A DNA stretch of 56,311 nt from positions 1-56,311 of the IMG/VR virus record IMGVR_UViG_3300013763_000001; one strand, 5' to 3'. A program made the position numbers and the translations under genes. The stretch's first letter is position 1, and each line of letters begins with the position of its first letter. The stretch comes from a virus. This document shows positions 5,380-47,087 of the stretch, one piece after another. The notes beneath the pieces are model-generated. The model was not told where the DNA came from, made no database searches, and saw nothing but the letters and a program-made list of their open reading frames with translations.

Positions 5380-6831
5380 TTACCTTCCTGTCGCCTTACC
5401 GCCGAGGACATTGGCGCCGACCTTGCCACCCAGGACACTCGCCGCCGTTCGTCCGCCGAGGACATTGGCGCCGACCTTGCCACCGACCCAGGGTATGCCG
5501 GTGGTTGCCGTCTGGAGCACGAACCGGAAGCCGGCATCGCGGTACCCCAGCGCCGCCAGCTGTAGGCGGAGACCGGCATCGCGGTAGGCAAGGACGGCGA
5601 GCGCAAAGCGGAATCGCGCGTCATGCCAGGCTTGCCCAGCCAGCCGGAAGCGCAGCGCCGCATCGCGTGTGCTCGCCGCTGCCAACCGAACGCGCATCTG
5701 CGTGTCACGGTAGGTCGCCGCTGAGGCCAGCCGGAAGCGGCTGGTTGTATCGCGGTAGCCGGTCGCCATGAGCCGGAAGCGCAGCGCAACGTTCCGGTAG
5801 GCGGAGCCTGGCACATTCAGGACGAACCGCAGGCCGCTGTCCCGGTAGGCGGTTGCTCGCAGCCGGAAGCGCAGTGCCGTATCGCGGTACGCCTGGGCAG
5901 CAAGCCGGAAGCGGAGCGCGGCATCGCGCCAGGCGGCTCCCTGCAACCGGAAGCGGAGCGCTACATCCCGGAACGCCGGAGCGGATACTAGGCGGAACCG
6001 GAGCGCACTATCGCGCCAGGCTGTTGCCTGAAGTCTGAAGCGTGCAGCCGCGTCCCGAAACGTGACCGGCGAGACCAGGCGAAAGCGAAGTGCGGCGTCC
6101 TTATACGCCTGCGCAAGGAGGCGGAACCGTAGCGCCGCGTCCCGGTAGACGGTCGCCGATACGAGCCGGAAGCGCAGCGCCGCATCTTTGTACGCCGTCG
6201 CGCCAGAAGCTGCCTTGTAGCTGGCGCTGACGGCGGCGTAATCCGTCGCGGGGAATGTCCAAGAGGAAATCTCTGACGTTCCACCGGCCAGGAGCTTATA
6301 CGTGTAGCCGGATGACTCAATACCTGTCCCCGAGCCGGTAAAGTCCTGGGTCCAAGTCGTCGATGCCAGCGTTGGAGCGGTAGCGGTATTCCAGTCGATG
6401 TTGAGGATGGCTATGGCAAGACCGGCGCTAGCGCCAGTGGCAAGCGTGCCAGCGTTACCGGACGTGGCCGACGCAGCGGTATTGCTCGCGGTCACATCCA
6501 GCGGCGTGGTCGTCGCTGTGCCGCTCCATTCGTTGAATACCGCCGTCTGGAAAGTCGGGCCCGCTGCCGATTGCATACTCGTCACGCCGGAGGGTGCGAC
6601 CAGGGAGAAGATGTCGGCAAACTCATTGTCAGTGCCAACCGTCGCGTTGATATCCCGGTTGAACGTCCCAGCGCCACCGGTGGAAGTAACGCCGGTAGCA
6701 GCAACCCCGGTGCTATACGACGCAACCCGGTACGTCAGGAGATTGTTCGCTGCCGGACTATGTGTCCAACTAAGGGCGAGACTGCTGTTTGTATGCAGGA
6801 GTCCAGAGTTGGCGACGTTGACGACGGCCAT
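5380..6831 (-). CDS. Fibre-like protein: lectin-like N-domain plus sixteen RDAALRFRL repeats
   Basis: A 483-aa protein. Residues 1-207 form a beta-rich, Ser/Thr/Ala-rich domain with a concanavalin-like look (AGLAIAILNIDW, then DYAAVSASYKA). Residues 213-441 are sixteen repeats of about 14 residues with consensus A-Y-R-D-A-A-L-R-F-R-L plus a variable linker. Residues 449-478 are three copies of a VGxxVLGGK motif. It is probably an extended host-binding or virion surface protein at the end of the late operon. The repeats alternate charged and hydrophobic residues as in beta-strands. Confidence 0.6.
   Translation of the reverse strand: MAVVNVANSGLLHTNSSLALSWTHSPAANNLLTYRVASYSTGVAATGVTSTGGAGTFNRDINATVGTDNEFADIFSLVAPSGVTSMQSAAGPTFQTAVFNEWSGTATTTPLDVTASNTAASATSGNAGTLATGASAGLAIAILNIDWNTATAPTLASTTWTQDFTGSGTGIESSGYTYKLLAGGTSEISSWTFPATDYAAVSASYKAASGATAYKDAALRFRLVSATVYRDAALRFRLLAQAYKDAALRFRLVSPVTFRDAAARFRLQATAWRDSALRFRLVSAPAFRDVALRFRLQGAAWRDAALRFRLAAQAYRDTALRFRLRATAYRDSGLRFVLNVPGSAYRNVALRFRLMATGYRDTTSRFRLASAATYRDTQMRVRLAAASTRDAALRFRLAGQAWHDARFRFALAVLAYRDAGLRLQLAALGYRDAGFRFVLQTATTGIPWVGGKVGANVLGGRTAASVLGGKVGANVLGGKATGR
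5398..5487 (-). repeat. Three Gly-rich VLGGK repeats at C-terminus of fibre-like protein
   Basis: The encoded segment reads GGKVGANVLGGRTAASVLGG and then a third copy, GKVGANVLGGK. On the DNA the unit includes GAGGACATTGGCGCCGACC, which is repeated twice. Confidence 0.8.
5509..6192 (-). repeat. Sixteen degenerate ~42-nt coding repeats (YRDAALRFRL)
   Basis: The repeats have diverged at the DNA level (different codons) but keep the protein pattern [YFW]-[RK]-D-x3-R-[FV]-x-L. This means they are maintained by selection on the protein rather than created by recent slippage. Confidence 0.85.
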
Positions 6832-7314: not shown

Positions 7315-7764
7315 TCACGGCGCGGCGATGCCGAGATGATCCACCGCGAGCGGGCCGAGGTGCTCCCATTTGCAGTCGTAGGCGTTGTCCACAAACGTCC
7401 TCAACGTGTCGGTGCGATAGTCCCAGCAGGCGAAGGACGTTTCGCCGTTGAGACCGTAGAGGTAGCCAATCAGATGCGCCAAGGTATGGCGCCCCATTGA
7501 CGTTGAGGCGACGGCCAGCTTCAGTTGCACGAACCGGCCGGTATTGTCGTGACTGGTGCCGAGCTCCGCTACCTGGCCGTTGGGGCAGACTAGCCGGAGC
7601 TTCTGACGGCCCTTGCGCGGCAGTTCCGTCCAGTCGCGGCGGTATTCCTCAATGACGGTCCCATCGTGGAACTTCATCACCCAGAACGAGCGGCCGGACA
7701 GGCGTGCGTAGGCAACCGGATCACCGGACACGGCGAAACGGATGGGGTCAAGAATGCCGAGCAA
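7315..7764 (-). CDS. Late protein of unknown function (149 aa)
   Basis: Starts MLGILDPIRFAVSGDP and contains VMKFHDGTVIEEYRRDWTEL and KLRLVCPNGQVAELG, and a C-terminal aromatic helix region. The globular composition differs from the Thr/Ala-rich fibre genes on either side. It lies between fibre-like genes, and the plus-strand HNH gene with its leader is inserted upstream of it. Not recognised. Confidence 0.5.
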   Translation of the reverse strand: MLGILDPIRFAVSGDPVAYARLSGRSFWVMKFHDGTVIEEYRRDWTELPRKGRQKLRLVCPNGQVAELGTSHDNTGRFVQLKLAVASTSMGRHTLAHLIGYLYGLNGETSFACWDYRTDTLRTFVDNAYDCKWEHLGPLAVDHLGIAAP

Positions 7765-7811: not shown

Positions 7812-7888
7812 TATACTGAAGGGTCAAATTGGAGTGCTCCCGCACTGCGCTAACAGCCGGGAGCCGTCACCGAAGATTGGAGCCTTCG
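7812..7888 (+). promoter_or_regulatory. Guest-gene leader cassette 1 (promoter, hairpin, TTGGAG RBS)
   Basis: Extended -10 TGC-TATACT (7812-7817), then GAAGGGTCAAATTGG. A 7-bp stem follows, GCTCCCG (7836-7842) with CGGGAGC (7858-7864), and TTGGAG lies 6-7 nt before ATG 7889. The same order of elements occurs at 14543 and 20703. Confidence 0.7.
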
Positions 7889-8548
7889 ATGCCTGTTCAG
7901 TGTACCTGTCTCTCCTGCGGCGCGTCATTCCCAGTGTTCCCGCATGAAATTCGCCGTGGTCGTGGGCAGTACTGTTCCCGCTCGTGCAAGGCCGAAGGGC
8001 AACGTGGCCCGCGTACCGACCTGATTGAGCGCTTCTGGGCAAAGGTAGATACGTCCGGCGGCCCGGATGCGTGCTGGCCCTGGACAGCTTCACGCCATAG
8101 TTACGGGTACGGTCAAATTGGGCTGCCTGGTGGGGGAATCGTTCGTGCTCACCGTTTGGCCTGGGAAATTGCGAACGGCCCGATACCTGAAGGCAAAGGC
8201 ATCCTCCACTCTTGCGACAACCCACCTTGCTGCAATGCACGCCATTTGCGTCCGGGCACAGACTTGGACAATGCCGCTGACGCCAAAGCGCATGGAAGGC
8301 CACGTGGACGCCGCCGACTGTTGCAAAGAAAGCCGAAAGCACCGCCGAAGATTCCTAATCGGAGCGGTACTCACAACGGACGCGCGAAACTCTCGGAAGC
8401 AGCAGTTCACGACATCATTGCCCACTGCCCCCGCCGAAATGCCGCATACGCCGCCTTTGGGGCAAAATATGGCGTCTCGTTGACCGCAGTCGCATTTGTG
8501 GTGCGCGAGCAGACATGGAAGCATATCCCGCGCACTACAGAAACCTAG
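7889..8548 (+). CDS. HNH homing endonuclease 1 (HNH_3 type with zinc finger)
   Basis: A 219-aa protein. Residues 3-45 form a zinc finger (CTCLSCGAS and YCSRSCK). The HNH core includes CWPWTASRHSYGYGQ, AHRLAWEIANG, then LHSCDNPPCCNARHL and GTDLDN, as in free-standing phage HNH_3 endonucleases. A C-terminal HTH-like DNA-binding segment (KLSEAAVHDI, then WKHIP) follows. It stands alone on the plus strand among minus-strand late genes. Its stop shares the tetranucleotide CTAG with the stop of the convergent gene. Start 7889 was chosen for TTGGAG. Confidence 0.9.
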   Translation: MPVQCTCLSCGASFPVFPHEIRRGRGQYCSRSCKAEGQRGPRTDLIERFWAKVDTSGGPDACWPWTASRHSYGYGQIGLPGGGIVRAHRLAWEIANGPIPEGKGILHSCDNPPCCNARHLRPGTDLDNAADAKAHGRPRGRRRLLQRKPKAPPKIPNRSGTHNGRAKLSEAAVHDIIAHCPRRNAAYAAFGAKYGVSLTAVAFVVREQTWKHIPRTTET

Positions 8549-9276
8549 GCAAAAGTGTACTTCACCGAAACATCATTGGCGTAAGTACCCGTACTTTGGT
8601 TCGGGCCGGTGAACAGAGCGATCATAATATTTATGTTATCGGCTGTGGTTGCGGCTGGGGTAGCAGGGAACTGTAACCAGTCGTTATCTCCCTGTAAACC
8701 TTGGAAATTGGTTGCCCAGTTGGCTCCGGCAGTCGGCGTCACGGCGCCGGTCGTACCGTCCGTCACCACCGGTGCATTGGTCGGAGCAGCGGCAGGAGCG
8801 CCGGCAGTGACCACACGGCCGAACATATTGGCCTTGAGGTAGGAGCGTGCGGTAGCGCCGGTGTCGGTGGTGTTCCCACCCAGCAGCGAGTTATCGCCGC
8901 GCGTGACGGCAGCGTGCGCGTTGGTCGGGTAGGCGGTGAGAATGGGTGCGCTAGCGAAGCTGCCGACGGCATCGTAGTTGATGCGCGCCTGGAGGTAACT
9001 CGCGTTGGTGAACGCGGCCGGGGTCGTACTCGTGGTGCCGAGCACACCCAGCGAGGTCGTGTCTGCGCTGAACACGTAGAGGTAGGGCACCGCAGCGGTT
9101 GCGGCCGGCCGTGTCATGTACGGCCAGGATGCTGAGGCGGTGGCACCGGCGGTGTTGACATCCAGGAAGCGCAACTCCTGGCCGGTGCCAGCACCCCAGG
9201 CAGGGACGTTACTCCAAACGGGCGTCGCCTGGGTGCCGGTGTTGGCTTGGATCTGGAGCGTCGAAAAATCGGCCAA
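8545..9276 (-). CDS. Late structural protein, Thr/Ala-rich (243 aa)
   Basis: Begins MADFSTLQIQANTGTQATPV. The composition is Ala/Thr/Asn-rich with beta-strand periodicity and ends in DVSVKYTFA. Probably a virion surface or fibre component of the tail-lysis region. Its stop overlaps that of the HNH guest gene by 4 nt (CTAG). No catalytic motif seen. Confidence 0.55.
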   Translation of the reverse strand: MADFSTLQIQANTGTQATPVWSNVPAWGAGTGQELRFLDVNTAGATASASWPYMTRPAATAAVPYLYVFSADTTSLGVLGTTSTTPAAFTNASYLQARINYDAVGSFASAPILTAYPTNAHAAVTRGDNSLLGGNTTDTGATARSYLKANMFGRVVTAGAPAAAPTNAPVVTDGTTGAVTPTAGANWATNFQGLQGDNDWLQFPATPAATTADNINIMIALFTGPNQSTGTYANDVSVKYTFA

Positions 9277-9334: not shown

Positions 9335-9393
9335 AAACGAGCGAAGGGACGCCGCCTGGTCAGTGCCGAAGGCGACGTGCCAGGTGGTAGCGA

Positions 9394-14542: not shown

Positions 14543-14626
14543 TATAATAAATGGTCACTTAATGGTGGTGACGCCGCGAGCGTGCAAGGCTCCGGCGTCG
14601 TGGCTCAACGTAGCTTGGAGTACGTC
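14543..14626 (+). promoter_or_regulatory. Guest-gene leader cassette 2
   Basis: Consensus TATAAT (14543-14548), AAATGGTCACTTAATGG, stem GACGCCG (14570-14576) with CGGCGTC (14593-14599), then CAACGTAGCTTGGAGTACGTC directly before ATG 14627. Same architecture as the cassettes at 7812 and 20703. Confidence 0.75.
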
Positions 14627-15301
14627 ATGCAATCGCATTCTACCCTGCCACCACTCCCTCTGTACTGTCGATTCTGTGGAAGCACATTCCGGTATCATCG
14701 AGAGATATTCGCTAGCCTTATATATTGCTGCAGAGCATGCAAGGATTCTGATGCTCCGTATATGGCGCTCCGCCGATTTTGGCGTCACGTTGATCGGAGC
14801 AATCCCAATGGTTGCTGGATATGGAAAGGTGCGCTCAGAAGTAAAGGATACGGACACTGCACATTCGGCGACAGGACTATGGGTGCTCATAAAGTAGCGT
14901 ACCTAACGATGATTGGCCCTGTACCCAAGGGACTTTTCGTCATGCATACTTGCGACATTCCCCGCTGCTGCAATCCCGCACATCTTCGGCTGGGTACCTG
15001 TGCGGACAATAATGCAGACATGCGAGAAAAGAAACGTCACCGGTTCGGCGATCGTCACCCCATGCGTACCAATCCAGAATGTCGCGCTACAGGGGAAAGG
15101 AGCGGAATGCGTAAACATCCTGAGTTGGTACGGCGGGGCGAGGATGCAGCCGGAGCGAAATTGGAAGCTGCCGATATTGCTGTGATTAGATCACGATATG
15201 CCGCCGGAGAGATGCAAAAGGTACTCGCCGCACAGTTCAACATATCCTCAGCCCACGTCTCTGGAATCGTCAACCGCAAGTTCTGGAAACACCTACCATA
15301 G
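14627..15301 (+). CDS. HNH homing endonuclease 2 (HNH_3 type)
   Basis: A 224-aa protein. Zinc finger CRFCGST and YCCRACK near the N-terminus. HNH core CWIWKGALRSKGYGHC, AHKVAYLTMIGPVP, then MHTCDIPRCCNPAHLRLGT. The C-terminal DNA-binding part has KLEAADIAVIRSRYAAGE and ends FWKHLP. Plus-strand guest in a minus-strand operon. Its 3' end overlaps the small zinc-protein gene at 15293. Codon use is less GC-rich than its neighbours, pointing to recent arrival. Confidence 0.9.
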   Translation: MQSHSTLPPLPLYCRFCGSTFRYHREIFASLIYCCRACKDSDAPYMALRRFWRHVDRSNPNGCWIWKGALRSKGYGHCTFGDRTMGAHKVAYLTMIGPVPKGLFVMHTCDIPRCCNPAHLRLGTCADNNADMREKKRHRFGDRHPMRTNPECRATGERSGMRKHPELVRRGEDAAGAKLEAADIAVIRSRYAAGEMQKVLAAQFNISSAHVSGIVNRKFWKHLP

Positions 15302-20702: not shown

Positions 20703-20784
20703 TAAAATGAAGGCAGTTAATTGGTGTGGACCGGCGACGCTACCAACGTCCCGGTCCCGGCACAAACGTGATTGGAGCACGCTC
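20703..20784 (+). promoter_or_regulatory. Guest-gene leader cassette 3
   Basis: TGG-TAAAAT (extended -10, 20703-20708), GAAGGCAGTTAATTGG, stem GACCGG (20729-20734) with CCGGTC (20751-20756), an inner GACG/CGTC stem, then CAAACGTGATTGGAGC before ATG 20785. The final element is nearly identical to the leader of the moron at 27263. Confidence 0.75.
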
Positions 20785-21438
20785 ATGCGGAGCAATTCTA
20801 CCCCGTCGCCCAGAATGCGCCCATCGTTCGAGCGCATCTCGTGTACCTGCAATGCTTGCAACAAAGTATTTACGATTCACCCATCAGCAGCACGGAGAGG
20901 AGGAGGCGTGTACTGTTCCAGCAATTGCTATCACACAGGCCGCTATGAACATACCGCCGCTGAACGCTTCTGGGCACGTATTGACAAGACAGGAGAATGT
21001 TGGCTGTGGACGGGTAAAGCGCACTTGTCGTTTGGTTATGGACATCTGAGTTTTCACGGACGTACTACGTCCTCCCATCGAGTCGCTTGGGAACTAACAT
21101 ATGGTCCTATCCCAGACGGAATGACGGTAATGCATTCCGTCTGTGACAATCCGCCGTGTTGTCGTCCAGACCATCTGAAGTTAGGTACGAATGCCGATAA
21201 CCTTAAGGAAATGTGGGCAAAGGGGAGAGGGCATACCCCAATGATGGACGGTAGCTTCATTCGGCTCATTGGCTCTCAACACCCTCTATCGAAACTCACT
21301 GAAAGTGATGTCTGCGAAATGCGCCGCCTCTATGATACTAAGTTATGTACGGTCGCTGAGTTGGCGCGTCGGTACCCCATCTCGTACATGGTTGCAAAGA
21401 GAATCGTGTTTCGTCTATCTTGGAAGCATCTTCCGTGA
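20785..21438 (+). CDS. HNH homing endonuclease 3 (HNH_3 type)
   Basis: A 217-aa protein. Zinc finger CTCNACNK and VYCSSNCYHTG at the N-terminus. HNH core CWLWTGKAHLSFGYGH, SHRVAWELTYGPIP, MHSVCDNPPCCRPDHLKLGT. The C-terminal HTH part has KLTESDVCEMRRLYDT and ends LSWKHLP. Plus-strand guest. The stop is separated by one base from the stop of the convergent gene. It is lower in GC than its neighbours. Confidence 0.9.
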   Translation: MRSNSTPSPRMRPSFERISCTCNACNKVFTIHPSAARRGGGVYCSSNCYHTGRYEHTAAERFWARIDKTGECWLWTGKAHLSFGYGHLSFHGRTTSSHRVAWELTYGPIPDGMTVMHSVCDNPPCCRPDHLKLGTNADNLKEMWAKGRGHTPMMDGSFIRLIGSQHPLSKLTESDVCEMRRLYDTKLCTVAELARRYPISYMVAKRIVFRLSWKHLP

Positions 21439-27262: not shown

Positions 27263-27676
27263 ATGCGCCCGCCGCGATGGTTCGTGGTATTTATTCTTGG
27301 TGTTGCTGGTCTTTTGCTGGCCGTCGTGTTCAGTTCGCATCCTAGCCAGGATGTCCCGCAAGGGGCAGCGCCAACCAAAGCGCCGCCTGCTTACTCGCTA
27401 GCAGTAATCCAGAACGGCGGCTACGTCGGCCCTGACGATCTGCTCGTGCGCCAGTTTCAGCGCCAACTTGACCTTCTCAGCAGTAAATGCAACGACGCTG
27501 AAAGCACCATCGCGGATCAAGTCGTGACAACACACGACATCCTCAAGAAGCGTGGCATCGTTGAAAGCTACCTGGCTGTTCTCACTGACGTTGATCGCGT
27601 CGTGCCCGCTGGTACGTCCATGACGTGCGCTCAGGACTTCGCAGCCTGGGCGACTATCCGTATCGACACACCCTAG
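27263..27676 (+). CDS. Membrane-anchored moron protein (137 aa)
   Basis: ATG 27263 follows CAAACGTTGATTGGAGAGC, almost the same initiation element as the HNH guests. An N-terminal anchor or signal (WFVVFILGVAGLLLAVVFSS) is followed by a Pro-rich linker and a roughly 85-residue soluble domain with two Cys (KCNDAE and TCAQDF) that could form a disulfide outside the membrane. Its stop shares CTAG with the convergent chaperone. Superinfection exclusion or lysogenic conversion is a reasonable guess, but no homologue was recognised. Confidence 0.7.
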   Translation: MRPPRWFVVFILGVAGLLLAVVFSSHPSQDVPQGAAPTKAPPAYSLAVIQNGGYVGPDDLLVRQFQRQLDLLSSKCNDAESTIADQVVTTHDILKKRGIVESYLAVLTDVDRVVPAGTSMTCAQDFAAWATIRIDTP

Positions 27677-46441: not shown

Positions 46442-47087
46442 CTTCGTTCTCTTGCTGTCGCGGGACGTGCTTCCAAGCCTGGCCGGATAGCACCGCCTGT
46501 ACCGTTTGCGGAGCCACGCCGAAACGCCGCCCCAACGCGACCCCGCTCCAGCCCTCGCTGGCGGAAAGGCGCAGGATTTCCCGTACAGCCCCGTCATTGA
46601 GTTTGCTCATGCCAATGGACGTGCCGCGCGGTTGGGCCTCGGGGTGACGTTGCGCGCCGTTCCGACCTTTTGCAAGCATATCTGCCGTGTTCTGCTGCGC
46701 AGTTCCCAGCCAAAGGTGAGCAGGATTGACGCAGGAAGGGTTGTCTCCGTCCGGGCAATCATGGAGCACCCAAAGACCATCGGGGATAGCGCCGTTGGTG
46801 AGCTCCCACGCGACGCGATGGGTGAGCAGGTGGCGTCTCCCGTCGCTGGTTTGCCCATAGCCGCTCGGGTCTTTTCCCCCCGTCCATAACCAGCAGGAAT
46901 CGACGCCACCCGATCTATCAACGCGGGGCCAAAATCTTTCGGAAAGCGGGACACGTTTCGCGGCGAAATAGCACGGCTGCCCGCAGTATTTCCCCAACCC
47001 CCGACTTACGGCATCCTTGCGGGTAATGAACTGCTTCCCGCACTGCGCACATGCGCGCTCAACGAGCGTTCTCTTGTACCTGTCCAA
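46431..47087 (-). CDS. HNH homing endonuclease 5 (HNH_3 type)
   Basis: A 218-aa protein. Zinc finger CAQCGKQF and YCGQPCYFA, HNH core CWLWTGGKDPSGYGQ, THRVAWELTNGAIP, then LHDCPDGDNPSCVNPAHL. C-terminal HTH part KLNDGAVREILRLSASEGWS and ending AWKHVP. The TTG start at 47087 follows GAGAGG. An in-frame ATT 6 nt after the -10 or a GTG would give a longer, leaderless form. It is in the same orientation as its neighbours, unlike the other HNH guests. Confidence 0.8.
   Translation of the reverse strand: MDRYKRTLVERACAQCGKQFITRKDAVSRGLGKYCGQPCYFAAKRVPLSERFWPRVDRSGGVDSCWLWTGGKDPSGYGQTSDGRRHLLTHRVAWELTNGAIPDGLWVLHDCPDGDNPSCVNPAHLWLGTAQQNTADMLAKGRNGAQRHPEAQPRGTSIGMSKLNDGAVREILRLSASEGWSGVALGRRFGVAPQTVQAVLSGQAWKHVPRQQENEDGR

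Follow-up and report, generated by a model that had tools for sequence, protein, structure and literature searches.

Conserved two-hairpin antisense RNAs predicted at the translation starts of three phage HNH genes and of other mobility genes

Three HNH genes, their leaders and a moron

The DNA analysed here, which we call the window, is an IMG/VR virus record of 56,311 bases with 63% G+C. Genes for the phage head and tail, for terminase and for replication lie on its minus strand. On the plus strand, the ORFs at 7889..8548, 14627..15301 and 20785..21438 (HNH genes 1, 2 and 3) encode proteins with an HNH_3 domain (Pfam PF13392; E 7e-13, 1.4e-11 and 4e-13, respectively), which are predicted to be homing endonucleases. 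Upstream of each gene a sense −10 was read on the plus strand, namely TATACT at 7812..7817, a consensus match with a putative function, TATAAT at 14543..14548 and TAAAAT at 20703..20708. A bulged hairpin, hereafter hairpin 1, follows at 7836..7864, 14570..14599 and 20728..20757, and TTGGAG directly precedes the ATG in all three cases. A preliminary description of this DNA had proposed such a leader order for the three HNH genes, with hairpins that differ in sequence and agree in position, and a membrane-type moron gene sharing its ribosome-binding half. The order stands for the HNH genes, and their hairpins have different stems at the same position, built to one common design: stem parts of 7 bp and 4 bp, a single bulged C between them on the 5′ side, and a loop of 6–7 nt. 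The (T)TAATTGG-like box of that description is present in this phage's leaders but not elsewhere: the TTAATTGG box is local to this phage, and other phages have A-rich DNA at that place.

The resemblance between the leaders exceeds chance. A sense covariance model (R1) was derived from six leaders found in other phages, leaving the window out, and when run over the whole window it ranked exactly these three leaders at the top with 29.2, 19.5 and 17.5 bits, the next match scoring 15.7 bits. Moreover, when 80 loci retrieved through similarity to the HNH proteins were scanned, several HNH genes of unrelated phages showed the same order of −10, bulged hairpin, Shine-Dalgarno sequence (SD) and start codon.

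The moron is an ORF of 137 amino acids at 27263-27676 on the plus strand, inside the minus-strand tail region, and it gave no Pfam or PHROG match. GATTGGAG is found three times in the window, each time ahead of one of these plus-strand genes, and the moron has it, together with adjoining bases, in common with the HNH leaders; the similarity is limited to the ribosome-binding part and may be due to descent or to chance. We looked at the moron for hairpin 1, for the ANNNTA motif past the start codon and for a match to the antisense model R2 (both described below), and found none of them. The moron is not a member of the antisense-RNA family. The preliminary observation was thus confirmed in part, for the three HNH genes; it had overlooked a second hairpin around the SD, an antisense −10 within each coding sequence and a fourth HNH homologue.

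Strand, structure and promoter of the RNA

A larger set of loci was collected by searching IMG/VR with two DNA patterns that describe only the hairpin. Among the matches listed, duplicates were removed, and only a short motif after the hairpin and an ORF start 19–38 nt downstream were required, which left at least 104 loci. Statistics on hairpin 1 are circular in this set, while all other features were left free. The sense-strand reading embodied in R1 was the one we followed first, and it was dropped after the evidence from strand folding and G-U pairs. The antisense fold was more stable than the sense fold in 91 of 94 loci, by 5.2 kcal/mol on average (p 7e-17), and the SD part alone was more stable as antisense in 86 of 94, the strand difference in random coding segments being 0.4. 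At HNH gene 2 of the window, when longer segments were folded, the two strands were equally stable. The pair that the patterns left as A/G versus C/T reads, on the sense strand, G..C 79 times, A..C 21 times, A..T 4 times and G..T not once. A..C can pair only as a G-U pair of the antisense strand, which favours that strand for the RNA. The element is therefore not mainly a 5′-UTR hairpin of the HNH mRNA, as the preliminary description had it; the constraint acts on an RNA of the other strand.

The predicted antisense RNA is 67–71 nt long, has its 5′ end at the start codon and folds into two hairpins. From 5′ to 3′, it consists of an SD hairpin of about 10 bp, in which the complement of AUG is paired with GUG and the SD complement is displayed in the loop, of a short linker, and of the bulged hairpin 1, which is the hairpin of the preliminary description. 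By structure and position, the RNA thus lies opposite the translation start of its target. In an alignment of 13 members, antisense pairing was kept in 95.6% of cells versus 81.7% after shuffling and 37–49% in slid controls, and there were 38 double changes versus 13 in shuffles, a level attained in 0 of 500 shuffles. The antisense covariance model R2 was derived from these 13 loci, none of which comes from this phage. Over the window, the three sites came first, all in antisense orientation: antisense RNA 1 at 7826..7892 with 42.0 bits (E 3.3e-7), antisense RNA 3 at 20718..20788 with 30.2 bits (E 9.7e-5) and antisense RNA 2 at 14560..14630 with 27.2 bits (E 4.0e-4), all on the minus strand, followed by a match of 13.3 bits (E 0.3); these E-values are rough because the calibration was short. 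Hairpin 1 is supported in all three RNAs by R1 and by the antisense fold, and in antisense RNA 1 by R2 as well. R2 is biased towards C-rich stems. In 547 kb of loci retrieved through HNH proteins alone, it gave nine matches with E < 1e-3, all nine in antisense orientation where an HNH or LAGLIDADG gene begins; L015 and L026:4103 coincide with the training sites L187 and L098, and the other seven are independent. In the hairpin-fetched loci, all 14 extra R2 copies that were examined sit where a long ORF begins, with the 5′ end of the RNA mostly 4 nt inside it. Rfam 15 gave no family at gathering score in the window, and only tRNAs in ten relatives.

When the coding sequences were aligned on the start codon, little was conserved. 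However, a TA occurs between +7 and +20 in 97 of 104 loci versus 22.5% in other sequence intervals, with offsets 11 and 14 predominating, and 95% of these 97 loci have an A four positions ahead of it. The resulting ANNNTA motif is found just inside the coding sequence in 94 of 104 loci, against a background of 6.8% in a 17-nt stretch. It is preserved whichever of the three reading frames it falls in, and is therefore constrained as a nucleotide sequence. On the opposite strand ANNNTA reads TANNNT, a −10. The window copies are TACACT at 7899..7904 within HNH gene 1, located by the ANNNTA motif, and TAGAAT at 14637..14642 and 20795..20800 within genes 2 and 3, all on the minus strand. A −10 motif for the antisense RNA is accordingly present in 94 of 104 loci and in three of three window copies, with GG ahead of it as ahead of the sense −10; no −35 was found among the 104 loci for either the sense or the antisense promoter.

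As for the other end of the RNA, the nine nucleotides following hairpin 1 contain 4.2 T on the antisense strand versus 0.96 on the sense strand. The DNA before hairpin 1 is A-rich, and the antisense RNA therefore has a U-rich tail after it. By reading, the window copies have 2–4 T in these nine positions; because they are so few, termination in this phage is doubtful, and the position at which the window RNAs would end is uncertain. A role of the hairpin as a terminator of the surrounding late operon was considered and rejected, the flanking genes running in the same direction in 24 loci and in the opposite direction in 22.

Distribution, cargo and exchange of the module

The module is found on more than 100 genes for homing endonucleases, transposases, recombinases and other proteins, mostly of phages, at one to six copies per phage record. 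Among 94 cargo proteins, any of which may match several families, we counted HNH_3 (32), HNH (9), HNH_5 (7), AP2 (4), endonuclease VII (3), NUMOD4 (3) and T5orf172 (3), together with one LAGLIDADG, one GIY-YIG, one DDE transposase and one integrase; TnpB and resolvase are among further examples. The target is thus a mobility enzyme both in the window, with HNH_3, and in other enzyme families elsewhere. Some cargo has no known mobility role, including small Streptomyces zinc-ribbon proteins and secreted proteins. The zinc-ribbon family (64–72 amino acids, Streptomyces-type, CSWH...CxPCR) regularly has the element, as at loci L156, L176, L191, L203, L205, L210 and L306. Two other loci, L304 and L217, one of them from an actinomycete genome, have related DDE_Tnp_1 transposases with the antisense element at their start.

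R2 matches were obtained in 11 of 148 genomes from the class of Brevibacterium casei. A full copy (E 2e-4) belongs to gene 16 of Microbacterium phage Footloose (MZ150789.1, L297), whose annotated start at 9392 appears to lie about 40 bases too late, because the element suggests a GTG near 9350 as the start codon. The other 14 of 15 named phage records had no R2 match at E 0.001 or better; a related element, which R2 misses, was recognised by eye at gene 23 of Arthrobacter phage Jinkies. The two cultured phages make the antisense hypothesis testable now.

Several comparisons bear on mobility. The genes at 5380-6831, 7315-7764 and 8545-9276 also form a block in another phage, with 43–69% protein identity, and the gap that holds HNH gene 1 in the window is occupied there by an HNH gene and a LAGLIDADG gene, each with its own RNA. 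In the same other phage, L279:8234-8344 and L279:11652-11762 are 100% identical over 111 bp, from just upstream of the sense −10 to about codon 10, after which they continue into different nucleases. This is direct evidence of module exchange between cargoes. The preliminary interpretation, in which gene and leader move as one unit or a single RNA element serves unrelated cargo, was partly supported, gaining from this exchange and from the recurrence of the module. It had also named leaderless HNH homologues as evidence that would count against it. Most HNH_3 homologues do lack the module, but the module is not thereby absent: it is separable from HNH genes. Inside one phage, a putative regulatory module is swapped among unrelated selfish genes. 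In two Brevibacterium prophages (L121 and L125), the upstream DNA and hairpin 1 are identical and the second hairpin and the cargo differ; the junction between the two hairpins is another exchange point. Further close relatives of the window phage were sought through the major capsid protein, the tape measure protein and the gene at 8545-9276, and none was found; BLASTN of one leader among phages gave no match. Leader-bearing HNH genes were opposite to both neighbours in 5 of 10 cases versus 20 of 75, which is not significant (p 0.15).

Proposed function and comparison with known systems

Free-standing homing endonucleases are common phage parasites, and to our knowledge their control is known mainly from T4-like phages, where it relies on self-folding of the mRNA. 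We consider it quite probable that all three HNH genes are provided with a small antisense RNA gene of their own, whose product represses translation in the manner of RNA-OUT. Transcription would start from the antisense −10, which is GGTANNNT read on the minus strand at about codons 4–6 of the nuclease gene, and would run from the complement of the start codon back through the SD to give an RNA of about 67–71 nt, ended in most relatives by the U-rich tail after the bulged stem. This RNA would pair with the nuclease mRNA across the SD and AUG, with a loop-loop contact coming first, and would thereby block translation, as RNA-OUT does with the IS10 transposase. The RNA could act in trans; therefore, a gene entering a naive cell could undergo a burst of translation and then be silenced. 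The computations support the structure, its strand, covariation and position, the conserved antisense −10, the range of cargo and the exchange among cargoes, while we infer the transcription, the termination in this phage, the repression and the timing effect; the module probably limits when selfish genes are expressed. Against this reading, YUNR, the usual kissing-loop motif, is present in only 64 of 117 hairpin 1 loops. Loops differ between the copies of one phage, and we rejected the idea of orthogonal loops among copies, as chance mostly gives such differences too. The wider proposal, of a portable antisense module for all classes of DNA-mobility enzymes, with a burst on naive entry, silence thereafter and copy-specific loops, is tentative and seems to us rather doubtful as a whole.

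Repression is preferred to activation because the RNA exactly covers the SD and AUG, which should block ribosomes. The opposite effect, in which the antisense RNA would open an inhibitory SD structure and so activate translation, has a precedent in the proposal made for ISPpu9 Asr9 (PMC8450116). The sense leader does form an SD hairpin, with at least 4.5 bp in 35 of 93 loci versus 8 in mispaired controls, but this hairpin is weak beside the antisense one, and we regard activation as unlikely. Structure in the 5′ UTR of the nuclease mRNA, acting as stabiliser, insulator or control of the ribosome-binding site and leaving the antisense signal as a by-product, would agree with the good sense −10s of the window, whose distance is fixed, with the TANNNT found upstream of hairpin 1 in 63 of 104 loci, and with the use of mRNA structure at the ribosome-binding site by T4 I-TevI and Aeh1 mobE (PMC3014915). 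It would leave the any-frame ANNNTA inside the coding sequence without a role, however, and stability, G-U pairs and the U-rich tail all point to the antisense strand, making this reading a little less likely still. The specific case of a T4-type hairpin sequestering the ribosome-binding site was rejected, the sense SD hairpin being the weaker in 86 of 94 loci.

It is also conceivable, and in our opinion very improbable, that the inverted repeats are bound as DNA by a regulator of the phage or host, or that they are the ends of a mobile DNA unit. GGTANNNT and ANNNTACC are placed symmetrically on either side of the leader, and the leader moves among cargoes; yet the stems vary while pairing is kept, with G-U on one strand only, a pattern expected of RNA rather than of DNA recognition. 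We also rejected IS605-type hairpin ends, attC-like sites and HEARO/omega RNA as identities, there being no Rfam match and one-strand G-U favouring RNA. The start-associated sequences (SAS/ESAS) of cluster K mycobacteriophages were rejected likewise, as their 13-bp GGGATAGGAGCCC (motif from PMC3203893) is not present at the three window starts.

The proposed repression by an antisense RNA has parallels in several systems. The transposases of IS10, IS30 and IS200 are inhibited by antisense RNAs (as summarised in PMC8450116), which, like IS10 RNA-OUT on RNA-IN, are short and overlie the 5′ part of a mobility gene, including its translation start. In contrast, the family described here has two hairpins and a bulged stem, has no Rfam match and is found on many unrelated enzyme families, mostly in phages. 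Asr9 of ISPpu9 in Pseudomonas putida is likewise an antisense RNA directed against the 5′ UTR of a transposase gene, and its promoter lies within the first tnp codons, but it is about 180 nt long, complementary to a 244-nt UTR, and it stimulates translation rather than repressing it (PMC8450116). The bulged hairpin recalls pMV158 RNAII and CopA-type RNAs, which are short countertranscripts that block translation initiation, the role proposed here by analogy. RNAII combines a bulge of 1 nt with a loop of 6 nt and a U-rich 3′ end, and it differs in being 48 nt long with one hairpin, a single-stranded 5′ tail and a replication-protein target (PMC4485353); bulges are needed in CopA (Hjalt and Wagner 1995, as cited in PMC4485353). 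T4 I-TevI and Aeh1 mobE share the restraint of phage homing endonuclease translation at the RNA level, but in these genes the mRNA folds on itself (PMC3014915), whereas in our element it is the opposite strand that has the conserved structure. SAS/ESAS resemble our element in being repeated at start sites, with short inverted arms enclosing the SD and, in about half of the cases, inverted repeats upstream; they differ by their fixed 13-bp sequence and their restriction to ordinary genes of one phage cluster, and their authors found little support for mRNA hairpins (PMC3203893). In the open-licence literature searched, we found neither an antisense RNA of phage homing endonucleases, whose existence is not thereby disproved, nor a paper describing the two-hairpin element.

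If the proposal is correct, HNH, LAGLIDADG, GIY-YIG, transposase and recombinase genes have a common control layer; under the wider proposal, one RNA design would regulate homing endonucleases, transposases and recombinases of phages alike. The design would also add a new family to RNA annotation, and it offers an easy way to mark such genes. The fourth HNH homologue of the window, at 46449-47063 on the minus strand, is 43% identical to gene 1 and has no leader. Immediately upstream of it, by eye, there is a divergent ORF for an Arc/RHH-like repressor.
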